The position numbers and the translations under genes are program-made. Of a DNA stretch of 64,000 nt, positions 47,763 through 63,287 are shown piece by piece. Source of the stretch: Sacculina carcini. Taxonomy: Eukaryota > Arthropoda > Thecostraca > Sacculinidae. The DNA is taken from assembly GCA_916048095.2 (NCBI GenBank), contig OU696571.1:9624449-9688448 (forward strand), given 5' to 3'. How positions within the stretch are numbered: position 1 is the first letter of the stretch; the number at the start of each line of letters is the position of its first letter. A model generated the notes under the pieces. That model did not search any database. It was not told the origin of the DNA and saw only the letters and a program-made list of their open reading frames with translations.

Positions 47763-48100
47763 GTGTGTGTGTGTGAGTGTGTGTACGTATGTGTGTTTGG
47801 GTTCGCGGTTACTATTACTTGTGAGTGTACTGTGGGGACATGGTGTGGTGTGGGAGCAGCAGGGATGTGGCGAACGTCGAGGGTAGTTGGTGTGAAGCGT
47901 TTGTGGAAGGAGGGTGTGTGATTGTTTGGTGAATATGAGTGTGGTTTTGGTTGTTAGGTTTTTGTGTCTGCTGGTTGGTTCTGTGATTTGCTGCTAGCAC
48001 ATACATCAAATCATCATCATCTTCATCATCTGACTCGTGCTGGACATCGGTGCTCGTGCAATATATATGTGAAAGTTTTTTCCGGCATTTATTCGTTACA
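47763..48100 (+). mobile_element. Gypsy-like 5' LTR, piece 3 of 3
   Basis: Starts in a GT run and then matches the 3' LTR from about 53845 to its end at 54140 with roughly ten to twenty differences (gagcagcagggatgtggcg, gtgaagcgtttgtggaagg, ttgctgctagcacatacatc). It ends TTATTCGTTACA at 48100. The three pieces together cover most of the 504-bp LTR. Confidence 0.9.
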
Positions 48101-48113
48101 AGCTATTTCGGCT
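48101..48113 (+). promoter_or_regulatory. Candidate primer-binding site complementary to the tRNA-Phe 5' end
   Basis: AGCTATTTCGGCT directly follows the LTR end CGTTACA, where the primer site should be. It does not begin with TGG. Its reverse complement contains GCCGAAATAGCT, which equals bases 1-12 of the conserved animal tRNA-Phe. The small LTR element at 58861 has the same 13 bases at the same place (59137-59149). Confidence 0.55.
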
Positions 48114-48116
48114 AAT

Positions 48117-48890
48117 ATGGCGAGTGTTAAGCTCACCGATGTTCTACGTCCGTTTGATGGATCGTCCAACGTTACAGATTGGATCGATAAGTTTGAATTG
48201 CTGGTGCAACTGAAGGAGATGAAGGATGAGGAAACGATACTGCCAATGTTTCTCGAAGGCAGTGTACTCGCTCTCTATACAGAGCTGAGTGCAGAACAGA
48301 AGAAAGATGTGGCAGTCATCAAGAAGGCCCTCCAGAGTGCGTTTTCTCTCAACTCCTTCAGTGCGTATGAACAGCTTGTGAGACGCATATGGCGTGACGA
48401 GCCAGCTGATGTTTACATGACCGATCTGAGGAGACTATCAAGGCAGGCTGGAATTACGTCTGATTCTGTGCTGCTGAGGGCTTTTGTTGTTGGCTTGCCA
48501 TCAGTTGTCTCAAGAGAGTTGAGAGCAATGGCAAACATTGAAGCGACGCCCTGTCAGCTGTGGTGGACCGCGCCAGAGCTTTGATGTCTGAGCTCATGGA
48601 GCGGCCTGAACCTGTGTTGTCTATGACACATGAAACGACATCAAATATTGGTCGGCGTGGGGAGAAAAATGCGACCAAGAGGACACATGAGGACAGCCGC
48701 GGTCAGATTCGGCAGTGCTATCGACGCGGCGGCCCCCACTTGATGCGTCAGTGTACGAATATTAATTTGAAGCATGTAGTTTGCTGGATTTGTGGGAAAC
48801 CGGGCCATATCTCGAGATCATGTTTTAGCTGGTCGGAAAACTTCATGGGAGAAACTTGTGCGCAGGAAGTTTCTCACACCCAGTAGCAAC
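48117..48890 (+). pseudogene. Gypsy-like gag with zinc knuckles, frameshifted
   Basis: The ATG at 48117 begins MASVKLTDVLRPFDGSSNV, four bases after the primer site. The capsid-like region has WIDKFELLVQLKEMKDEE, LPMFLEGSVLALYTELS and VLLRAFVVGLPSVVSRELRA. Near 48555 the frame changes; 48560-48886 carries the nucleocapsid with CYRRGGPHLMRQC (a knuckle lacking its second Cys) and CWICGKPGHISRSC (intact CCHC). It would package element RNA. The protease frame overlaps its end. Confidence 0.8.
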
Positions 48891-49085
48891 GGCGCTTCCG
48901 ATAGTTGATGGATTCGTTGATGATCGTCCTGCGCTAATATTGGTGGACACTGGTTGCTCCAAATCTGTCGTTGATTCCTGGATGTCGGGTTGTGTCAATT
49001 CGTGGCAAAGACGAGTGGTCGGAGTGGATGGTCATGAAGCGCGTTGTATGGGAGAAGCATCCGTGTTGATCACACTTCAGAATGT
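48856..49085 (+). pseudogene. Gypsy-like protease, N-terminal part
   Basis: Retropepsin beginning near 48880 with VATALPIVDGFVDDRPALI and the active-site strand LVDTGCSKSVV (DTG intact). It is cut at about 49083 after VLITLQN by the tail of a LINE. It continues at about 51118 with LLDGVDVVAGIDIIGLAGEV, the second half of the domain. Confidence 0.75.
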
Positions 49086-51117
49086 CACAACAACAACAAC
49101 AACAACAACAAACATGTATTTAATATAGCGCACACAATAGTTACAAGCGCGCGACACGCAAAATAATACTGGAGCAAGTGGGAAATTTGGTCAATTGCGC
49201 AGGTTGGGTGAAGTAAAAACATGCAGCGCAGAACAGAAACACAAACATGTAGCAATTATGAGTCCGGAATATGTAACTAAAATGTGCAAAAAAGAGATAA
49301 ATCATTAAATAAAAGGAAAAACGGATTAAATCAATATCAATAGGAAGAATAAATCAATTATAACATTGCCAACAAGTAAACTTAAGAAGACTCTGAGGCC
49401 AAAGAAAGGAAATGTTTGTGCAGCTCAGAGGAGAAAGATGAGTAGGATTTCATTCGGAGGAGGCGAGGAGGAAGTGAATTATAAATGCGGGGTGCAGAAA
49501 AAAAGAATGATTTCGCAGACCAAGTGGATTGGTTCAACGCAGGGGGACAGATTAGAGGAGTAGGATGGCGACGTGAACCAGAAGTACTCTCTTGAACCAG
49601 AAGTAGTGAGCGTAGATAGGCCGGGGGTGAAGGACAGTGAAGGATTTTGTACACCAAACAGCAAATTTTGTAGCGAATTCGGAAATGAGCAGTGAGCCAA
49701 CCAAGGCGGTGAAGGTGAGCTGAAGTAGGCGTTTTGGGAGGAAGTTTAAGAACGAAGCGACAGGCAAGGTTGATAATGGATTGTAGATGGCGGATACTTT
49801 TGAGGGGAAGGTGAAAAAACAAGGAGTTACAGTAATCTAGGCGAGTGAAAATGTAAGAATTGACGAGAAGAACAGCCGAAGATTCGTCCAAAAGAGAACG
49901 TATGGGATACAATTTTCTCAGAATGAAGCGGCAAGAGCGAGTGAGTTGAGAAAAGTGTTGAGAAAATGATATTGTTGGATCAAATGTGATGCCAAGGTTG
50001 CGAATTTGAGCAGCTAGAGGCAAGGAGACAGTGGTAGGGGTTATCCTTGGAGGATGAAAAGCTAAGTAGACAGTTTTGTCGTGATTAAGAAGGAGGTATC
50101 TGGAGGCAGCCCATGACGAAATATGGGAAAGAAGTTTAGATACTAAAGAAGAATTATGTAAAGATAAGGGAAAGTAAATTTGTACATCGTCAGCATAGAC
50201 GTGAAAGGAAATAGGGTATTCTCTGAGGACAGAACAAAGGGACGAGACGTAGAGGTTGAAAAGGAGTGGTCCCAGGAGAGAACCCTGTGGGACGCCAGAA
50301 GTCAACGGAACATTGACAGACATCCGGGAATTACAGCGGACAGAAAAGGAACGTTTATGAAGGTAGGAAGAGACAAGAGAAAGAGCTGAGGAAGAAAGGC
50401 CAATATGGGCGAGATCTTCACAAAGAATGGAATGATTGACGAGATCAAAGGCAGATGAAAAATCTAATGATATTAGCAGAACAGATTTGCCGAAGGAAAA
50501 GTTGGAAAAAATGTCATTAGTGAGGCGAATAAGGAGAGTTTCAGTTGAATGATTTGACATGAAGCCTGATTGACAAGGATCAAGGACCGGAGTAATAATC
50601 GGACGAAGTTGTTCAAGGATAGCGTGTTCAAGAAGTTTAGAAGGAAGCGTAAGCATAGATATAGGACGATAGTTGGAGGGGATGGCAGGATCAGCATTAG
50701 GCTTCTTCAGTATGGGTGTGATTATATCATGCTTAGAAGCTAGAAATTGACCATGAAGAAAAGAGGAATTAACCATATGGGTGAGAATGGGAGCAAGGAG
50801 GAGGATCGAATCAGAGAGAGCGGAAAAATTAATAGGATCCGAGGGGCTTCTTTTGTTGCGGAGTTTGAGGAGAAAACGAGATGTTTTATAGGGAGAAAAT
50901 TGGTACGAAGGCCGAAATAGAATTTGAGGAGGTAGGAAATGATAGAGGAAAATGACTTTTTGGAATATTTGAGAGTATTGTATCAATTTTTTGAGTGAAA
51001 AAAGAGGAGAATTGATCAGCTGAAATCATTATTGGACTCCGGGAGGCACTACCAGTTATTGATTTCAGAGTGGACCACCGAGAGTGTGAGCCCACAAGGT
51101 CAGTAGATTGTGCTGCT
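49083..51117 (-). mobile_element. LINE-C: CR1-like LINE in the gypsy protease
   Basis: Minus-strand, 5'-truncated CR1-like LINE. Its 3' end is the (TTG)n tail (plus strand caacaacaac, 49088-49108) preceded by the common terminal motif with atacatg. Its 5' limit lies near 51117, where gypsy protease sequence resumes. A target duplication was not recognised. Closest in this window to the copy at 15.7-17.7 kb. Confidence 0.85.
49382..50986 (-). CDS. LINE-C ORF2, RT to C terminus, open
   Basis: 534 residues without a stop, although 5' truncated; a further frame reaching 51117 adds a linker (SADQFSSFFTQKIDTIL). Motifs in order: SNYRPISMLTLPSKLLEHA, DPCQSGFMSNHSTETLLI, motif A ISLDFSSAFDLVNHSI, motif B LTSGVPQGSLLGPLLFNLYV, the catalytic box FHVYADDVQIYFPLS (50185-50196), LLLNHDKTVYLAFHP, NLGITFDPTISFS, then RLDYCNSLFFHLP, RLGWLTAHFRIRYK and the C-terminal STWSAKSFFFSAPRIYNSL. 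Best-preserved copy of this family here. It would need an endonuclease, absent in this truncated copy, to move itself. Confidence 0.85.
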   Translation of the reverse strand: MIQYSQIFQKVIFLYHFLPPQILFRPSYQFSPYKTSRFLLKLRNKRSPSDPINFSALSDSILLLAPILTHMVNSSFLHGQFLASKHDIITPILKKPNADPAIPSNYRPISMLTLPSKLLEHAILEQLRPIITPVLDPCQSGFMSNHSTETLLIRLTNDIFSNFSFGKSVLLISLDFSSAFDLVNHSILCEDLAHIGLSSSALSLVSSYLHKRSFSVRCNSRMSVNVPLTSGVPQGSLLGPLLFNLYVSSLCSVLREYPISFHVYADDVQIYFPLSLHNSSLVSKLLSHISSWAASRYLLLNHDKTVYLAFHPPRITPTTVSLPLAAQIRNLGITFDPTISFSQHFSQLTRSCRFILRKLYPIRSLLDESSAVLLVNSYIFTRLDYCNSLFFHLPLKSIRHLQSIINLACRFVLKLPPKTPTSAHLHRLGWLTAHFRIRYKICCLVYKILHCPSPPAYLRSLLLVQESTSGSRRHPTPLICPPALNQSTWSAKSFFFSAPRIYNSLPPRLLRMKSYSSFSSELHKHFLSLASESS

Positions 51118-52134
51118 ATGAATAAGCTGTTAGATGGTGTTGATGTAGTGGCAGGAATTGACATCATTGGGTTGGCGGGGGAAGTCGAGTGGAAGCAAGG
51201 GAAAATCAGATTTTTTTATGAATGTCGTGGGGAAACGACTGTTAGTTCGATTTGTGAAGTTACCACCAGGACGAATGGCAGGTTATGTCTCATGGACAAA
51301 GACTTCACGACTATCTTCTCTTAAGGGAAGTGGAAGGCTAAGTGGAATTGGAAAAGTACGTCTCCACCAGCCCTGAAAAATACAGTTGGGGCGTACAGTA
51401 GTGTAGAGGATGAAGCCGTGAGCAGAAAATGGAGAGAAGAACTTGATCAATGGATAATCAATGGCTATTTGAAAGAGTGTCCTGGTCAGTCTTGCTCTAA
51501 AGGAGCGCTACCGCTAATGGCTGTTGTTCAAGCTAACAAGAGTAAGGTACGACCAGTTCTCGATTATAGAAAATTGAATGAGTACGTACAGTGTCATCCG
51601 GGGTCCGACGCCGCGGTTTGCACCGAGAATTTGCGGAAATGGCGACTGCTACCACAGAGATTGAAACTTGTGGACCTGAAATCAGCATACCTTCAGGTAC
51701 ACATAGACGAGTCGTTGTGGCATTATCAAAGGGTGAATTACCTAAGAAGGATATATTATTTAACTAGACTTGGCTTTGGGTTAAATTCAGCACCGAAGAT
51801 TATGTCGAGTGTCTTGAAAACGGTACTGGCGCAAAATGACGTCGTGAGAACCGACACCGATAGTTATATCGACGACGTCATTGTCAACGAGGAGATTGTA
51901 TCGGTAGAGGAAGTGATAGCGCATCTGGCGAAATTTGGGTTGGAAACCAAGCAGTCTGAATCTCTCGATGGTGGCAGACTACTCGGACTAATTATTGGGC
52001 GGAGTCATCTTGGAGGAGCTTTACAATTCAGTAGAGGGAACACACTGTCAGTGCTGGGGAATGAAGAGAATATGTCAAAGCGAGAGCTGTTTCCAGCGTG
52101 CGGCCGCTTGGTAGGGCACTATCCAAGCGGATAA
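51118..52134 (+). pseudogene. Gypsy-like protease end and reverse transcriptase
   Basis: 51118-51400 continues the protease (MNKLLDGVDVVAGIDIIGL) into the connector. The RT frame 51418-52134 has WIINGYLKECP, SKVRPVLDYRKLNEYV (finger strand), LKLVDLKSAYLQVHID (motif A), LTRLGFGLNSAPKIM (motif B), and DSYIDDVIVN (catalytic YIDD, 51865-51876). Then LAKFGLETKQSESL and RLLGLIIG follow. All three catalytic Asp are present. The frame breaks at 52134 beside a large inverted duplication (52144-52212). Confidence 0.85.
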
Positions 52135-52212: not shown

Positions 52213-53575
52213 TAGGACCTAGAGCTCAAAAATTGTTGATGGAAATACTGGACAGAGTGAGAGCTGATGACCCGGTGAAGGGTGATTTTCATGTGTCACC
52301 AGTTTATCGTGGAAGAGTGTGGTGTGACGCCAGTAGTTTTGCCCTGGGTGTTGTGGTAGAGATTGGAGGTAAACTGGTAGAAGATGCAGCTTGGCTGCGC
52401 AAACGGGATGACGCGAGCCATATCAACTTGGCGGAGGAGGATATCGATTCTGCGTGACAGCATCAATGAGCTGGGCGTTGAGCTCACTGTGAAATATTCT
52501 CCATCGTCGACGAACAAGGCGGATCGGTTGCCACGAGTGCCAAAGTCGTGGTTGAAGCCTACGCTCGGAGTACCTACTGTGTATGCAGTGACCTTGAGCG
52601 AGATGGACTCCCGGCATCATTTTGGAGTTGACAGGACGTTGTCGCTTGCCCAGATGGTGGACACGAGAACCACGAGATCCGACGTAGAGAAGTGCTTGCG
52701 GAAATGCAAGCAGTGCCAAATGATTGATCCAGCTCCAGTACGTCACGTGCCGGGTGAACTAAGTGTGAATGATAATTGGAGTCGGCTGGCAGTGGACACA
52801 ACTCATCACAGGGGGCATTGCTATTTGACTATATTGGACTCGGGACCTTGCAGACTTGCGCTTTGGAGGAGAGTTCGGTAGGAGAACAGCGAGGATGTTG
52901 GGCGAGTCTTTGAGGAGCTGTTCCAGGAGCGACGACCGATAAACGAACTACTCATGGATAACAGCAGAACATTCAGGTCTGTTCGGCTGGCGGAGCTATG
53001 TCAGAAATGGGGCATGCAGCGACGTTACACAGCGGCCTACAAGTCATCAGGAAACGGAATTGTCGAAAGAAACCACCGAACGATCAAGAGAATGGCTGAG
53101 CGTTGTCAGACAACACCGAATGAGGTATTATTTTGAGGTATTATTATTTTGGTATAATCTGGCTCCAAAAACATCAGCGGACACGAACTCATCGCCTGCT
53201 AATGGATTGTACCGGTACAAGTGGAGGCATCCATCGGTTCCTGTAGAAGCGGCGGAAGCTTCAAACAGTATGTGACGCGTGGGTGACGATGTGTGGATAA
53301 AATCTCCGGGGGCGCGCTGTACAACGTATTGGAATCGTTGACAAGTGACAAACGTAATATCAGATAATAGTGTGGATGTGGACGGTGTGCCTCGTCACGT
53401 ACTCGAAATTCGGCGCCTGCGCGAAGAGTCTGAAGACGATGGTCAAACAAAGTCAGAGACTGCCACAAAAGGTTCAGAGACTGCCGCAGAAGAGTCGGAG
53501 CCTGAGCAACAGATACAGAGGTCGACAAGAGAACGGCGGCAGCCGAGATGGATGCAAGATTATATATGTGACTAA
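52213..53575 (+). pseudogene. Gypsy-like RNase H, integrase and C-terminal tail
   Basis: RNase H at 52215-52460: VWCDASSFALGVVVEIGGK (first Asp) and HINLAEEDIDSA. Part of the domain is deleted before DSINELGVELTVKY. Integrase follows: DSRHHFGVDRTLSLAQMV...CLRKCKQC (His-His-Cys-Cys finger), first catalytic Asp in LAVDTTHHRG (about 52790), second in LLMDNSRTF (about 52955), Glu in GNGIVERNHRTIK (about 53065). The tail is GDDVWIKSPG, VDGVPRHVLEIRRL, an acidic Glu/Thr stretch, then RRQPRWMQDYICD ending at 53575. Several frameshifts. The order gag-PR-RT-RH-IN is that of Ty3/gypsy. The tail matches the fragment at 13.1-13.5 kb. Confidence 0.8.
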
Positions 53576-53636: not shown

Positions 53637-53698
53637 TGTGGTGTATAATTGCGTTGGAAATATGTATCTAGTGGGCTTTGGATGTGTGTGCGCGTATC

Positions 53699-53755
<57 letters not shown>

Positions 53756-54140
53756 TATCGCGATTGCTTGTGAGTGTACACATGCTGGCATGGTCTGTAG
53801 TGGAATCAAAAGGTGTGTGTGTGTGTGTGTGTGTTTGTGTGCGCGGTTACGATTGCTTGTGAGTGTACGTGTGTTGACATGGTTTGGAGTGGGAGCAGCA
53901 GGGATGTGGCGAACGACGAGGGTGGTTGGTGTGAAGCGTTTGTGGAAGGAGGGTGTGTGATTGCTTGGTGAATAAGAGTGTGGTTTTGGTTGTTGGGTTT
54001 TTGTGTCTGTTGGTTGGTTCTGTGATTTGCTGCTAGCACATACATCAAATCATTATCATCATCATCATCTGACTTGTGCTGGACCATCGGTGCTCGTGCA
54101 ATATATATGTGAAAGTTTTTTTCGGCATTTATTCGTTACA
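53637..54140 (+). mobile_element. Gypsy-like 3' LTR, complete (504 bp)
   Basis: Begins TGTGGTGTATAATTG after a purine-rich catgggggcg (53627-53636, likely polypurine tract) and ends TTATTCGTTACA, with the TG...CA termini of LTRs. It contains two GT runs (53704-53752 and 53814-53832). These are the points at which LINE-A and LINE-B entered the 5' LTR. No matching target duplication was found at 23578/54141. Confidence 0.9.
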
Positions 54141-55277: not shown

Positions 55278-56319
55278 TGTGGCGTACACACTTGTTAACT
55301 ACACTTGTTAAGTAAGGTTAAACATGTATAGAATACAATTAGTAAATCAGCTATGTATTACATTCACACATTGCCAAAACATAACAATACATACATGCCA
55401 ATACATAATTTCAAGTACGATACAATACAATACAATACGATACGATACCCACAGCGGCTGGACACGTATACGCGGGGAGCACGAATAAGTAGCGGGAGCA
55501 CAATGAATTGAGCGAACAACTCTAGCACAGTGTGACAGCACGCACTTTACTCGACTCATGATGTAAGATGCTAGTGTACCCGCAGTGGCCGGACACGCAT
55601 ACACGGGGAGCACGAGTAAGTAGCGGGAGCACAATGAATCGAGCGAACACTCTAGAACTGTGTGACAGCACGCACTATACTCGACTGACTTGTCCAACAC
55701 TTGTAGCACCAGCCGGAATCAATTCACTCCATGTAGGACACCGGTCACGTGACCGTCTGGAACGTGTCGTGCGATGTCTGAGCAAAACAGTAGTGGGAAA
55801 TAGCGGGACTACCATCGTCGTGGGTAGTGTGAACACACAGTAGCACTTCCGCCGGCTTGTGTGGGGAATGGGGGCGCACACAGACGGCTCAGACGGACAA
55901 ACGCAAGCACACAGGCGGCGCGGATATACAGCGCGACACAAACACGATATAGCCAGACGGCGACGTAAACACACGGCGACGAAAATAACACATCCGGTGG
56001 TGTGCACGGTGTGAACATACATAAAAAACATATTGCAAAGTGTGTACATTTATACAATAATAATGCAATGAAACAAACACGCACAATTCGCATCACTAAA
56101 ATTATACAACGAAAATCAATACAAAATAAAATCAATAGGAAATAAACATGTGTGTGTATAAACAAGTGTGTACGCCACAGGAGCCCCCTCCTCAGATCAG
56201 GGCTATAAACGAACAGGTGGCCCGATGCGTCGGCCTGATCGAGAATGAATGTGTTGTGGCGTTGCTGTGTCAATGGATAATTGTTGTGATGATGTTGGCG
56301 CACCGGGAATTTGTTGCGA

Positions 56320-56900
56320 GCGTTGCTGCGTTGCTGCGCGTATTGCTGAGCGTGTTGCTGCGTTTCTGTGCGTGTTGCTGAGCATGTTGCTGCGCTGCTG
56401 CGCGTGTTTCTGAGCATGTTGCTGCGTTGCCGCGCGTGTTGCTGAGCATGCTGCTGAGTTGCTGAGCGTGTTGCTGAGCGTGCTGCTACGTTGCTGCGCG
56501 TGTTGCTGAGTTGCTGAGCGTGTTGCTAGGCTGCTGCGCGTGTTGATGTGCGTGTTGCTACGCTGCTGCGCGTGTTGCTGCGTTGCTGCGCGTGTTGTTG
56601 CCGTTCTGCGCGTGTTGCTGAGCATGCTGCTGAGTTGCTGAGCGTGTTGCTGCGATGCTGCGCGTGTTGCTGAGCGTGTTGCTACGTTGCTGAGCGTGTT
56701 GCTGCGTTGCTGAGCGTGTTGCTGCGATGCTGCGCGTGCTGCTGCGTTACTGGGCATGCTGCTGCGTTACTGGGCATGCTGCTGCGTTGTTGCACGTGTT
56801 GCTGCGTTGCTGCGCTGGTTGCTACGTTGTTGCGCGTGTTACTGCGTTTCTGCGCGTGCTGCTGAGCGTGTTGCTACGTTGCTGCGCGTGTTTCTATGAA
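56320..56900. repeat. GCTGCGTTGCTGCGCGTGTT minisatellite
   Basis: About 580 bp of variable 5-bp-multiple units built from ttgctg, cgttgctg and cgcgtg. It is the internal core of the composite. The minus strand is open for 184 codons (Gln/Ser/Ala/His-rich) only because of the repeat. Confidence 0.9.
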
Positions 56901-57084
56901 GATTTAGACTGACTGTCCATTTCCAGGCTAATTCAGCCAGTGTCGGTAAAACGCAGTAGGTTAAGCGCAGATGTGTACCAAAATGATATGCCGTTCGCAA
57001 GTAAAGTCGTACGCTCGAATGCAAGAACGCACGGTATAATACAAAATTATACAAGGTATATAATACAAGATTCAATATAAACCA

Positions 57085-57250
57085 AGATGCAAGATAAGCC
57101 AATACACGATGAAAGCCAAGACGCGGTGTAAGGCAAGACGCGCAAGATAAGCCAAGACGCAACACAAGACAATACGCGATACAAGGCAAGACGCGCAAGA
57201 TAAGCCAAGACGCAACACAAGGCAATACGCGATACAAGGCAAGACGCTCA
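57085..57250. repeat. Second short minisatellite, aagacgc/aagccaagacgc
   Basis: Repeats of caagataagccaagacgc and aagacaatacgcgatac, with about 53-bp higher-order copies. Purine-rich on the plus strand, just before the second direct repeat. Confidence 0.85.
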
Positions 57251-58192
57251 AAAATCAAGACCAAGATCGAGATCGAAGATCAAGACTCATCATGTAAGAT
57301 GCTAGTGTACCCGCAGCAGCTGGACACGCATACGCGGGGAGCACGAGTAAGTAGCGGGAGCGCAATGAATCTAGCGAACGCTCTAGCACTGTGTGACAGC
57401 ACGCACTATACTCGACTGACTTGTCCAACACTTGTAGCACCAGCCGGAATCCCTTCACTCCATATAGGACACCGGTCATGTGACCGTCTGGAACGTGCCG
57501 TGCGATGTCTGAGCAAAACAGTAGTGGGAAATAGCGGGACTACCATCGTCGTGGGTGGTGTGAACACCCAGTAGCACTTCCGCCGGCTTGTGTGGGGAAT
57601 GGGGGCGCACACAGACGGCTCAGACGGACAGACACAAGCACACAGGCGGCGCGGATATACAGCGCGACACAAACACGACATAGCCAGACGGCGATGATAT
57701 GGCCAGACGGTGACGTGAACACACGGCGCAAATAGGCGACGAAAATAACACATCCGGTGGTGTGCACGGTGTGAACATACATAAAAAACATATTGCAACG
57801 TGTGTTAATTTATACAATAATAATGCAATGAAACAAACACGCACAATTCGCCGCACTAAATTTATACAACGAAAATCAATACAAAATAAAATCAATATGA
57901 AAGAAACATGTGTGTGTGTGTATAAACAAGTGTGTACGCCACAATATTTAGACAAAAACACACATACTCATCGAGTTTTGCTCATCTTCACATATTAGGA
58001 TATTTTCAATCAATTAAAATCGTGACATCGATGGAGCTAATCACACGCTCGATAGAAATTCAAATGCTTGCAAGAAAAGGCTGAAAGCACAGACACTAAG
58101 ACAGATTGCAAAATAATTACTCGCCAGCATACAACTCAAATAGCCTAACTGATGCAGATCGATGTTTTGATATCTTTCTGATGATTGAACAG

Positions 58193-58423: not shown

Positions 58424-58860
58424 GTGGGCACAACGCTTGGTCTACTGTGATGCACTGAATTCCGGAGTGTGAGAGCTTGACGATCACACAAGTGTCTAAT
58501 CATTAGGGTGACCTTTTGATTCGCTAAAAATCAAGAAAAAATGCGCTAAAAATCGTATAAGCTGCGCTAAAAAGTTGCACTTAAAATTCTGCAAAAATTT
58601 CACTAAAACCCGTAAAAGGGTAGTGAGAATCACTGAATTATGAAAAACATAGTTTTGTAAGGAAAATTTGTATTTTTTACATTCGATAACTATTACCACA
58701 ATACGTTTTGAGCACTCACGGTTGTGCTAGGATTACATGCTTCATGAGCTTCAACTGTCACCTCACTGGCGATTTGGAAGCGCTAAAATTGCAAATAATT
58801 GCGCTAATAAGTTGAGCTCAATGGTTCGCTAAATATCTTCAATTTTAAATAATAGGGTAA
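58424..58860 (+). other. Intronic sequence with repeated gcgctaaaaa
   Basis: Contains several gcgctaaaa(a/t) phrases (58533, 58562, 58781, 58801), also present in looser form at 61085-61110. No gene. Confidence 0.45.
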
Positions 58861-59729
58861 TGTAGTGTGATCGTGTGCAGTGAGAGAGTGTGTGTGAGAG
58901 ATTGTGTCTACGTTGACTGATGTTGTGTGTGCGTGAACGTGTCAGCGTCATATTGTGCCTGTGTGGTCGTGTATGGTTTAATTGTGTATGGCGTGCGAGA
59001 GTGTGTGAGCTAGCGCTCGGGTTGAAGTCTTGTCCGTGGTGCGGTTGTGGCGTGACGTCTTGTAGGCGCGCATGGGGCGGTGATGCCCACGCGCGCCTGT
59101 CTGTTAATATAACTTATATTTTTTGTTTTCGTTACAAGCTATTTCGGCTTTTTTGTTTGGAAATTGGTTTTGTCTGCGACCCGGCTTCAGCAACGGAGTG
59201 CTCTCCAGTATTAGCAGCGGCTTGGAAGACGTGGTGGGGGTGCTCGGCGGAGAGTCAGGTTGGTGCGCAGGGGGACGGCAGGAGAGCATGGTGCCGGCAG
59301 GAGGCAGCTGTGAGCTGCGGCCGAGAGTTGATCATTGTCCCGCCTGAACTGGTGTTGGACCTTTCTCCGGGCAGCTAGAAGATCGCCGGTGGAAGCTGCT
59401 AGTGCTGGATGGCAGGCGAAAGAAAGGAGCTGCTGAAGCCGGAGGAGAAAACGAAGGAGTTTAGACGACGGCGTGGCCTGCGTGAGTGGTGGCGGCACGG
59501 CTGTCGCGGCAGGGTGCTGAAGATCACCGGTGTCGACGGGAGCATGGTGGATGCTGGGGTCGTGGTGTTGTGCCCTGTCGCGGCAGCCGGCGATGAAGAG
59601 GACGCCAGGCTGCGGCGGAGCACTGAAGAGCACGGGCGAGGCGGGAGCGCGGTGGACGCTGGGGCGTGGGGCGGTGATGCCCACGCGCGCCTTACTGTTA
59701 ATATAACTTATATTTTTGTTTTCGTTACA
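58861..59729 (+). mobile_element. Small non-autonomous LTR element (TRIM-like)
   Basis: The 5' LTR is 58861-59136, TGTAGTGTGATCG to CGTTACA. The primer-site position reads AGCTATTTCGGCT. A roughly 0.5-kb GC-rich interior without a clear protein follows. The end copy 59663-59729 repeats the last ~65 bases of the LTR (gatgcccacgcgcgcct, ttaatataacttatat, cgttaca). GGTAA flanks both sides (58856-58860 and 59730-59734), a 5-bp target duplication, so it inserted as one unit. The 3' LTR is shortened. The interior has open frames, but they show only composition bias. Confidence 0.75.
59063..59092. repeat. GC hairpin near the LTR end
   Basis: AGGCGCGCATGGG pairs with CCCACGCGCGCCT around a short GCGGTGAT loop. 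The right arm recurs at 59669-59690 in the shortened 3' LTR. A fuller version sits at about 63895-63935. Confidence 0.85.
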
Positions 59730-59821
59730 GGTAATAAAATTTAAACACTGAAATCATTCCTTAACATTACACTTTGGGTGTTTCACGTTTTTGTTTCTAC
59801 TTAATTATGCATTTTGAATTT

Positions 59822-62934: not shown

Positions 62935-63287
62935 GTCATCAATGAGAGCTAAAATATAAAGGTTGAATGCCTAAGTGGCAGCTGCTACACGGGAAGAAGC
63001 CGAAGCTTATGAACACACAGGCGTGCCCCGTGCAGATCGCTGCCACCACAGAACCGACCCTCTCCACGCTATGGCGCCACAAGGACGTAAGACGTATCAG
63101 AGAGGGCCACCTCCCCATAATGCATGGCACATCTCATGACTGATATCTGGTACCATCATTTTTCTGCTGAGTGGACAGGGGCTGTGGGATTGTAGAATTC
63201 GCCCAATGAACTTCTGATCCGCCGGGTTTCGAACCACGGACCTCCCGCTTGTGAGGTGAGTGTGTTAACAACTGCACCACGGAGTCC
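62935..63287 (-). mobile_element. tRNA-derived SINE
   Basis: On the minus strand it starts at 63287 with a degenerate tRNA-like head (63216-63287). Box A is TGGTGCAGTTG and box B is GGTTCGAAACC, with an anticodon loop CTCACAA reading CAC, as in tRNA-Val. The acceptor stem does not pair fully, so it is not a working tRNA. About 280 bp of unrelated body follows to about 62935. RNA polymerase III would use the A and B boxes. The left limit and tail are uncertain. Confidence 0.65.

Follow-up and report, generated by a model that had tools for sequence, protein, structure and literature searches.

A candidate primer binding site complementary to the 5′ end of tRNA-Phe at the LTR edge of gypsy-like and miniature elements in Sacculina carcini

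The LTR elements known to us start synthesis from the 3′ end of a tRNA, from an internal tRNA end cut near the anticodon, or from their own 5′ end. In copia and Ty5 the primer is a fragment of tRNA-iMet, a half-tRNA in the case of copia. The primer of Ty5 is described as the anticodon stem-loop, released by a cut in the anticodon loop that is made by RNase P (PMC5371799). Common to these half-tRNA systems and the elements described below is that an internally cut tRNA supplies the primer (PMC5371799), a cut that we infer in the present case; the pairing here, in contrast, would take in bases 1–12 as far as the 5′ terminus itself, so that the D stem would have to be cut, and the tRNA would be tRNA-Phe or tRNA-Ile. 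Complementarity to the anticodon region of tRNA-iMet, by which a copia/Ty5-type primer binding site (PBS) is recognised, is not what we find: our sites match bases 1–12 of tRNA-Phe (canonical sequence) and of tRNA-Ile (host genes).

Conventional gypsy elements (Mag, Osvaldo) and ERVs resemble the present elements in their LTRs, which here too appear to run TG…CA, in a gag-pol region encoding reverse transcriptase (RT) and integrase, and in a site at the LTR end, and differ in that their site matches the CCA end of a tRNA rather than its 5′ end. The primers described are tRNA-Leu or tRNA-Ser (in one case tRNA-Arg) for Mag-like elements of mosquitoes and the 3′ end of tRNA-Lys for Osvaldo-like elements (PMC3286476). 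Tf1 and Tj1 likewise have a site at the LTR edge that is short and lacks TGG; here, unlike in those elements, no complement was found in the transcript’s own 5′ region (23 cluster representatives). Bivalve TRIMs and the fungal copia elements GalEa and FunCo1 are comparable in their odd or missing PBS (PMC6934838, PMC5445492): two of the biv-TRIMs match the central part of tRNA-Tyr and FunCo1 matches an internal part of tRNA-Lys, so far as the accessible text of these reports goes, which presents the matches as internal or unresolved as opposed to 5′-terminal and describes no primer switch (PMC6934838, PMC5445492). Within the literature covered by our search, outside which most subscription papers and repeat-database notes fall, we found no report of a PBS complementary to the 5′ terminus of a tRNA.

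The window (the whole 64,000-nucleotide stretch of S. carcini DNA analysed here) carries the 12-mer AGCTATTTCGGC in two LTR elements, one gypsy-like and one miniature (Table 1), and at up to one mismatch contains these two matches only; in shuffled controls the mean number of matches was 0.18, with two or more in 2 of 100 shuffles. The motif CGTTACA lies immediately 5′ at both sites, confirming the original prediction on this point. AGCTATTTCGGC is the reverse complement of bases 1–12 of the canonical animal tRNA-Phe (hereafter the Phe site). The exact 12-mer occurs in two publications, in one of which it belongs to a 5′ probe for Drosophila tRNA-Phe-GAA that agrees with the canonical bases (PMC7038984). 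The usual, although not universal, mark of a Ty3/gypsy PBS, complementarity to a tRNA 3′ end, is absent, AGCTATTTCGGC having no TGG.

Table 1. Coordinates of the gypsy-like and miniature LTR elements in the window (position 1 is the first base of the window).
Feature	Position	Strand	Basis
5′ LTR of gypsy-like element (recognisable part; left end truncated), ends CGTTACA	47777..48100	+	blastn 92.9% over 326 to 53815-54140
Predicted primer binding site AGCTATTTCGGC, complement of tRNA-Phe bases 1-12	48101..48112	+	exact in 20/20 further family copies
gag start, ATG 4 bases past site; frame later broken	48117..48584	+	similar gag starts elsewhere among the clusters
gag nucleocapsid zinc knuckle (CCHC)	48542..48886	+	Pfam zf-CCHC E 8.4e-6, above curated cut-off
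Protease-like stretch, LVDTGCS	48829..49128	+	recognised by its motif; no Pfam hit
Reverse transcriptase (YIDDV), decayed	51325..52134	+	Pfam RVT_1 E 7.7e-6, below curated cut-off
Integrase pieces (zinc-binding and core), two frames	52381..53136	+	Integrase_H2C2 E 1.3e-4, rve E 6e-6, both below curated cut-offs
3′ LTR of gypsy-like element, TGTGG…CGTTACA, G-rich tract before	53637..54140	+	left edge judged by eye
Target site duplication GGTAA (left)	58856..58860		5-bp duplication
5′ LTR of miniature LTR element	58861..59136	+	bounded by GGTAA duplication
Predicted primer binding site AGCTATTTCGGC, complement of tRNA-Phe bases 1-12	59137..59148	+	match to 12-mer
3′ LTR of miniature element; right part only aligns	59664..59729	+	94% to 59070-59136
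Target site duplication GGTAA (right)	59730..59734		5-bp duplication

The gypsy-like element is a decayed copy in which the pol order, RT before integrase, can be followed (Pfam E 1e-4 to 1e-6, below cut-offs); LVDTGCS and YIDDV are presumably its protease and RT motifs. A PDB search with the RT piece gave no hit, and a weak match of a gag piece to Pfam tRNA-synt_1d, below cut-off, was dismissed as chance. Its two LTRs are alike as far as 48100 and 54140, in both cases ending …CGTTACA. The left end of the 5′ LTR is missing, and the LTR end of the element is placed by comparison of the two LTRs and by the CA edge. Two other features were noted nearby: a LINE-like ORF (YADDVQIY) at 49382–51025 on the minus strand interrupts the element, and at 55446–57943 two near copies (95%), about 1.73 kb apart, flank a minisatellite with 12/20-bp spacing.

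Across 264.4 Mb in 43 contigs of the same assembly, exact copies of AGCTATTTCGGC number 2021 (1005 + 1016), as against 5 (2 + 3) for the reversed control. The 17-mer TTACAAGCTATTTCGGC, which is TTACA plus the Phe 12-mer, occurs 858 times (control 0). Outside the genome, 257 Gb of prokaryote genomes used as a control contain this 17-mer in 27 stretches, close to the 30 or so that simple arithmetic predicts by chance, and viral contigs contain it in 1 stretch.

For the position of the site we took the first 68 of the 100 Phe sites listed (of the 2021), all on one contig. The dinucleotide before the site is CA in 67 of these 68 and CT in the remaining one. Together with the two sites of the window they fall into 23 clusters by downstream sequence, or 25 by LTR sequence, at the nucleotide level; between clusters, the conserved block stops where the mature tRNA begins. 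By eye, the gag starts of different clusters follow a common recognisable pattern, as would not be expected of unrelated elements, and the clusters are therefore read as one broad lineage that would have diverged past nucleotide similarity with these 12 bases held fixed.

Conservation was assessed independently of the motif, in copies located through a word downstream of the site. For the gypsy family that word has 27 matches, of which 20 were fetched (the other seven being the window copy, L096 on C1 and 5 that were left out); for the miniature family it has 534, of which 20, all on C4, were read. All 20 gypsy-family copies have the exact site, as do 15 of the miniature copies, with one change in 4 and truncation in 1. 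The original prediction asked for a test of whether 13 bases are conserved: the 12 bases complementary to the tRNA are conserved and the 13th is not (A 25, C 25, T 14, G 4 in the 68 sites), and the variation between copies that would have counted against a primer site is slight. In the 19 intact miniature copies, departures from the majority amount to 4 of 228 bases in the site; the corresponding figures are 101 of 665 for the LTR tail (−40 to −6), 7 of 95 for the last five LTR bases and 46 of 380 for the 20 bases downstream of the site. The last 4 LTR bases and about 5 bases after the site are also little variable within this family; the sharp edge at base 13 is visible between families, not within the miniature one.

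The miniature elements also show where the LTR ends. The one in the window (58861–59729, 869 bp) has LTRs, a predicted PBS, a target duplication and a length below ~1 kb, as TRIMs do, though its 3′ LTR is partial; because the GGTAA duplications fix the end of its 5′ LTR, the site can be seen to start at the very next base. The longest ATG frame near the site in this cluster is 56 codons (L005, the only member tried). Among 98 site-bearing loci, which represent 61 distinct contexts, 8 have a recognisable second LTR; all 8 are miniature, and in 6 of these (L006, L033, L035, L036, L059 and L104) a fitting 5-bp duplication places the LTR end at the site. In each of the six, the two LTRs agree at 22–25 of their first 25 bases, and a polypurine-like tract, AACAGGTGGAGG or AACAGGGGGAGA, stands immediately before the 3′ copy. 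No duplication was found for the two-LTR locus L016, and a candidate in L032 was dropped as it did not fit the start of the 3′ LTR. LTR ends are thus fixed by duplications in the miniature cluster only, those of the gypsy-like families resting on the window element and the CA edge.

The gene for the presumed partner, tRNA-Phe, was not found in the assembly, where runs of N occur in some stretches, so that its absence says little; tRNA-Ile genes and intron-bearing tRNA-Tyr genes are present. The basis for the match to tRNA-Phe is the canonical animal sequence together with two tRNA-Phe-like pieces, the only ones seen, at L039 1501–1535 (bases 38–72, 94%) and L040 1501–1530 (bases 38–67, 100%). 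Both pieces start at base 38 and are fused to element DNA in inverted arrangements, with the L039 junction at TTTCGGC, a motif common to the site and to the 3′ acceptor strand of the tRNA. Base 37 of eukaryotic tRNA-Phe bears a bulky modification that stops RT, and the pieces look like cDNA of the 3′ part of the tRNA, acquired by template switching after such a stop. They support the canonical 3′ half, TTTCGGC included, and therefore GCCGAAA at the 5′ end. Elsewhere in the window, 63215–63286 on the minus strand gives a tRNA-like Rfam match of 32.4 bits (gathering score 29); ARAGORN reports no tRNA in the window.

A second 12-mer lies upstream of the Phe site in two loci, L100 and L104 (AGCTAACCGGCC and AGCTAATCGGCC). 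AGCTAACCGGCC was recognised as the complement of bases 1–12 of tRNA-Ile(AAU), and this could be verified in the host. The genome has 10 matches to GGCCGGTTAGCTCAGTTGG, all exact with 2 mismatches allowed (the reversed control gave 16 at up to 2 mismatches), and the two loci that were fetched from among them (L148 and L149) are tRNA-Ile(aat) by ARAGORN; the second site is the exact complement of bases 1–12 of host tRNA-Ile(AAU) genes. It has 377 genome copies against 2 in the control (a figure given for AGCTAACCGGCC and CAAGCTAACCGGCC). In the 20 places read, which form 9 clusters, ACA always precedes it and the 13th base is again free (A 6, T 6, C 5, G 3). Eight of these clusters have no nucleotide match to the contexts of the Phe site, and their LTR ends are putative; the start of gag in L153, with the Ile site, resembles by eye those of L057 and L088, with the Phe site. 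The two 12-mers differ at 5 of 12 bases, and each matches bases 1–12 of its tRNA.

In the ninth cluster (L156, L162, L163 and L167) the Ile 12-mer lies inside the LTR and is followed by TGTAACA. Duplications delimit this LTR at 302 bp in L104 (AAGAG) and at 297 bp in L147 (AAATG; no partner LTR seen), and in both it ends TGTAACA, although the 3′ copy of L104, which is decayed, reads TGTAAAA. The Ile 12-mer sits 7 bp inside this end, exact in L147 and with one change in each L104 copy. Directly after the LTR comes the Phe site, unaltered in L100, L104 and L167 and changed at one base in L163. In LTR elements the LTR end is set by the start of minus-strand synthesis, and because it marks that start, the Phe site appears to have replaced the Ile site as the place where synthesis begins. 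The Ile 12-mer of this LTR would accordingly be a fossil primer site, left by a switch from tRNA-Ile to tRNA-Phe, and this apparent switch is the best evidence for the Phe 12-mer as the working site. Primer switching has a precedent in mouse ETn, described as changing between two tRNA-Lys (PMC7472051).

Searches for a third tRNA 5′ site covered tRNAs with TAGCT at bases 8–12. The shape AGCTA… gave 499 matches (control 380); among the 100 matches listed, the Ile site accounted for 58, words dissimilar to both the Ile and the Phe site came up at most 3 times each, and the candidate was rejected. A further search gave 221 matches (control 90), with AGCTATACAATG 21 times, a local C24 repeat 10 times and AGCTATACTACG 6 times among the 100 listed; we know of no tRNA 5′ end that matches any of these three words. 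The repeated word TACAAGCTATACAATG lies in the window at 2710–2725 on the minus strand and accounts for 21 of the 100 matches listed in that further search; no tRNA 5′ end known to us fits it.

We consider it probable that AGCTATTTCGGC is the PBS of a large and diverse gypsy-like group and of the miniature elements, with a 5′-terminal fragment of tRNA-Phe as primer whose 3′ OH lies at or near base 12, and that tRNA-Ile serves likewise elsewhere. The site, its position and conservation, the LTR ends of the miniature elements, the matches to two tRNAs and the fossil switch belong to what is observed; the existence of the fragment, its cutting and its extension by RT are what we infer. Antiparallel pairing would put tRNA base 12 at the LTR edge and base 1 on the far side, the correct orientation for extension. 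The primer 5′-GCCGAAAUAGCU-3′ (expected bases 1–12 of the tRNA-Phe gene: GCCGAAATAGCT) would have a mature 5′ end made by RNase P and a 3′ OH at base 12, from which RT would copy U5; bases 1–12 of tRNA-Ile(AAU) would act by the same scheme in other families. Alternatively the primer may end at base 10, with AG as a spacer of 2 bases that integrase would trim from the U5 end, and the two ends are indistinguishable because both tRNAs have CU at 11–12. Bases 13–14 (CA) would need TG for pairing, but the LTR ends in CA in 67/68; a longer fragment would therefore be unpaired at its 3′ end, which is why the primer should end at base 12 (or 10). It speaks against so short a primer that known tRNA fragments are usually 16–35 nt, longer than the predicted 12 bases (PMC7515703). 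That the site ends at tRNA base 1 would fit run-off copying of the matured 5′ end, or a mere lack of pairing beyond it; in Ty1 and Ty3 the PBS is said to come from inheritance by the element and not from copying of the tRNA (PMC7472051).

An intact tRNA would be equally complementary to the site, and might be held through its 5′ 12 bases with synthesis beginning at its CCA end, paired elsewhere, or at an internal 2′-OH of the uncut molecule, the latter a retron-like form of priming. The fusion of tRNA-Phe-like pieces (38–72 and 38–67) to element DNA does suggest that the 3′ part was once copied by RT, but the LTR ends, which mark the start of priming, coincide with the 12-mer in the loci tested, and we regard this course as unlikely. 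As to a better tRNA match in the leader, which would have spoken against the original prediction, TGGTGCCGA, the word for the tRNA-Phe 3′ end, occurs within 600 bases of the site in 0 of 68 loci (0.31 expected). Its shorter form TGGTGCCG is present in 14 of the 68 (1.25 expected), where it proves to belong to the interior of two clusters, lying at +41 in 3 loci and at +151 to +181 in 11; TGGTGCC is found near the site in 22 of 68 loci (4.98 expected). With TGGTGCCGA lacking and TGGTGCCG traced to the interior of two clusters, a conventional tRNA-Phe 3′-end site nearby was rejected.

Far less probable still is that the 12-mer is kept for some other reason (integrase, packaging or coding) and resembles tRNAs by coincidence. 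ATG frames of at least 150 codons opening between −60 and +80 are present in 14 of the 23 clusters (the miniature cluster being represented by the single member L005). In 3 of the 23 (L004, L049 and L106) the longest gag frame does open 17–32 bases before the site, within the presumed 5′ LTR, and runs on across the site, which it translates as QAISA; in 11 of the 23, however, the ATG of the longest frame comes 12–31 bases past the first base of the site and leaves the site non-coding. Two sites with five differing bases, both equal to the complement of tRNA bases 1–12 and one of them verified in host genes, are also hard to square with coincidence, as is the freedom of the base after the 12-mer in both site types.

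Self-priming, in which the site would pair with the 5′ end of its own transcript, has its precedent in Tf1 and Tj1 (PMC4600332) and would suit a site that begins at the LTR edge, but we give it hardly any credence, for the longest complement within 300 or 900 bases upstream is no longer than for shuffled sites (one representative of each of 23 clusters, 0/23 below 5%), as the original prediction would have it, and there are two different sites that each match a tRNA 5′ end. Downstream (900 bases, the same 23 representatives) only L002 stood out, through a palindrome on the site itself, and was set aside. There the site is followed by CAAATAGCT, giving the imperfect palindrome AGCTATTTCGGCCAAATAGCT, possibly the product of a snap-back event.

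Priming by a 5′ tRNA-Phe fragment, as originally proposed, is thus the interpretation that the sequence evidence supports, and the tRNA-Ile site and the fossil primer switch go beyond that proposal. Taken at its widest, and held with slightly less assurance than the assignment of the site itself, the likely picture is that a whole lineage of LTR retrotransposons primes from the RNase-P-matured 5′ dodecamer of tRNAs, that it exchanged tRNA-Ile for tRNA-Phe at least once, and that it depends on a dedicated cut (or an uncut 2′-OH start) at base 12 in the D stem.

If this is true, a 5′-terminal piece of tRNA would represent a further class of priming, and 5′ tRNA fragments would gain a role in replication. 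Fragments of tRNA 3′ ends are described as repressing conventional elements through the same pairing that primes them (PMC12853362, PMC7472051); elements that pair with the 5′ end of a tRNA should escape these 3′ fragments and meet 5′ fragments instead.
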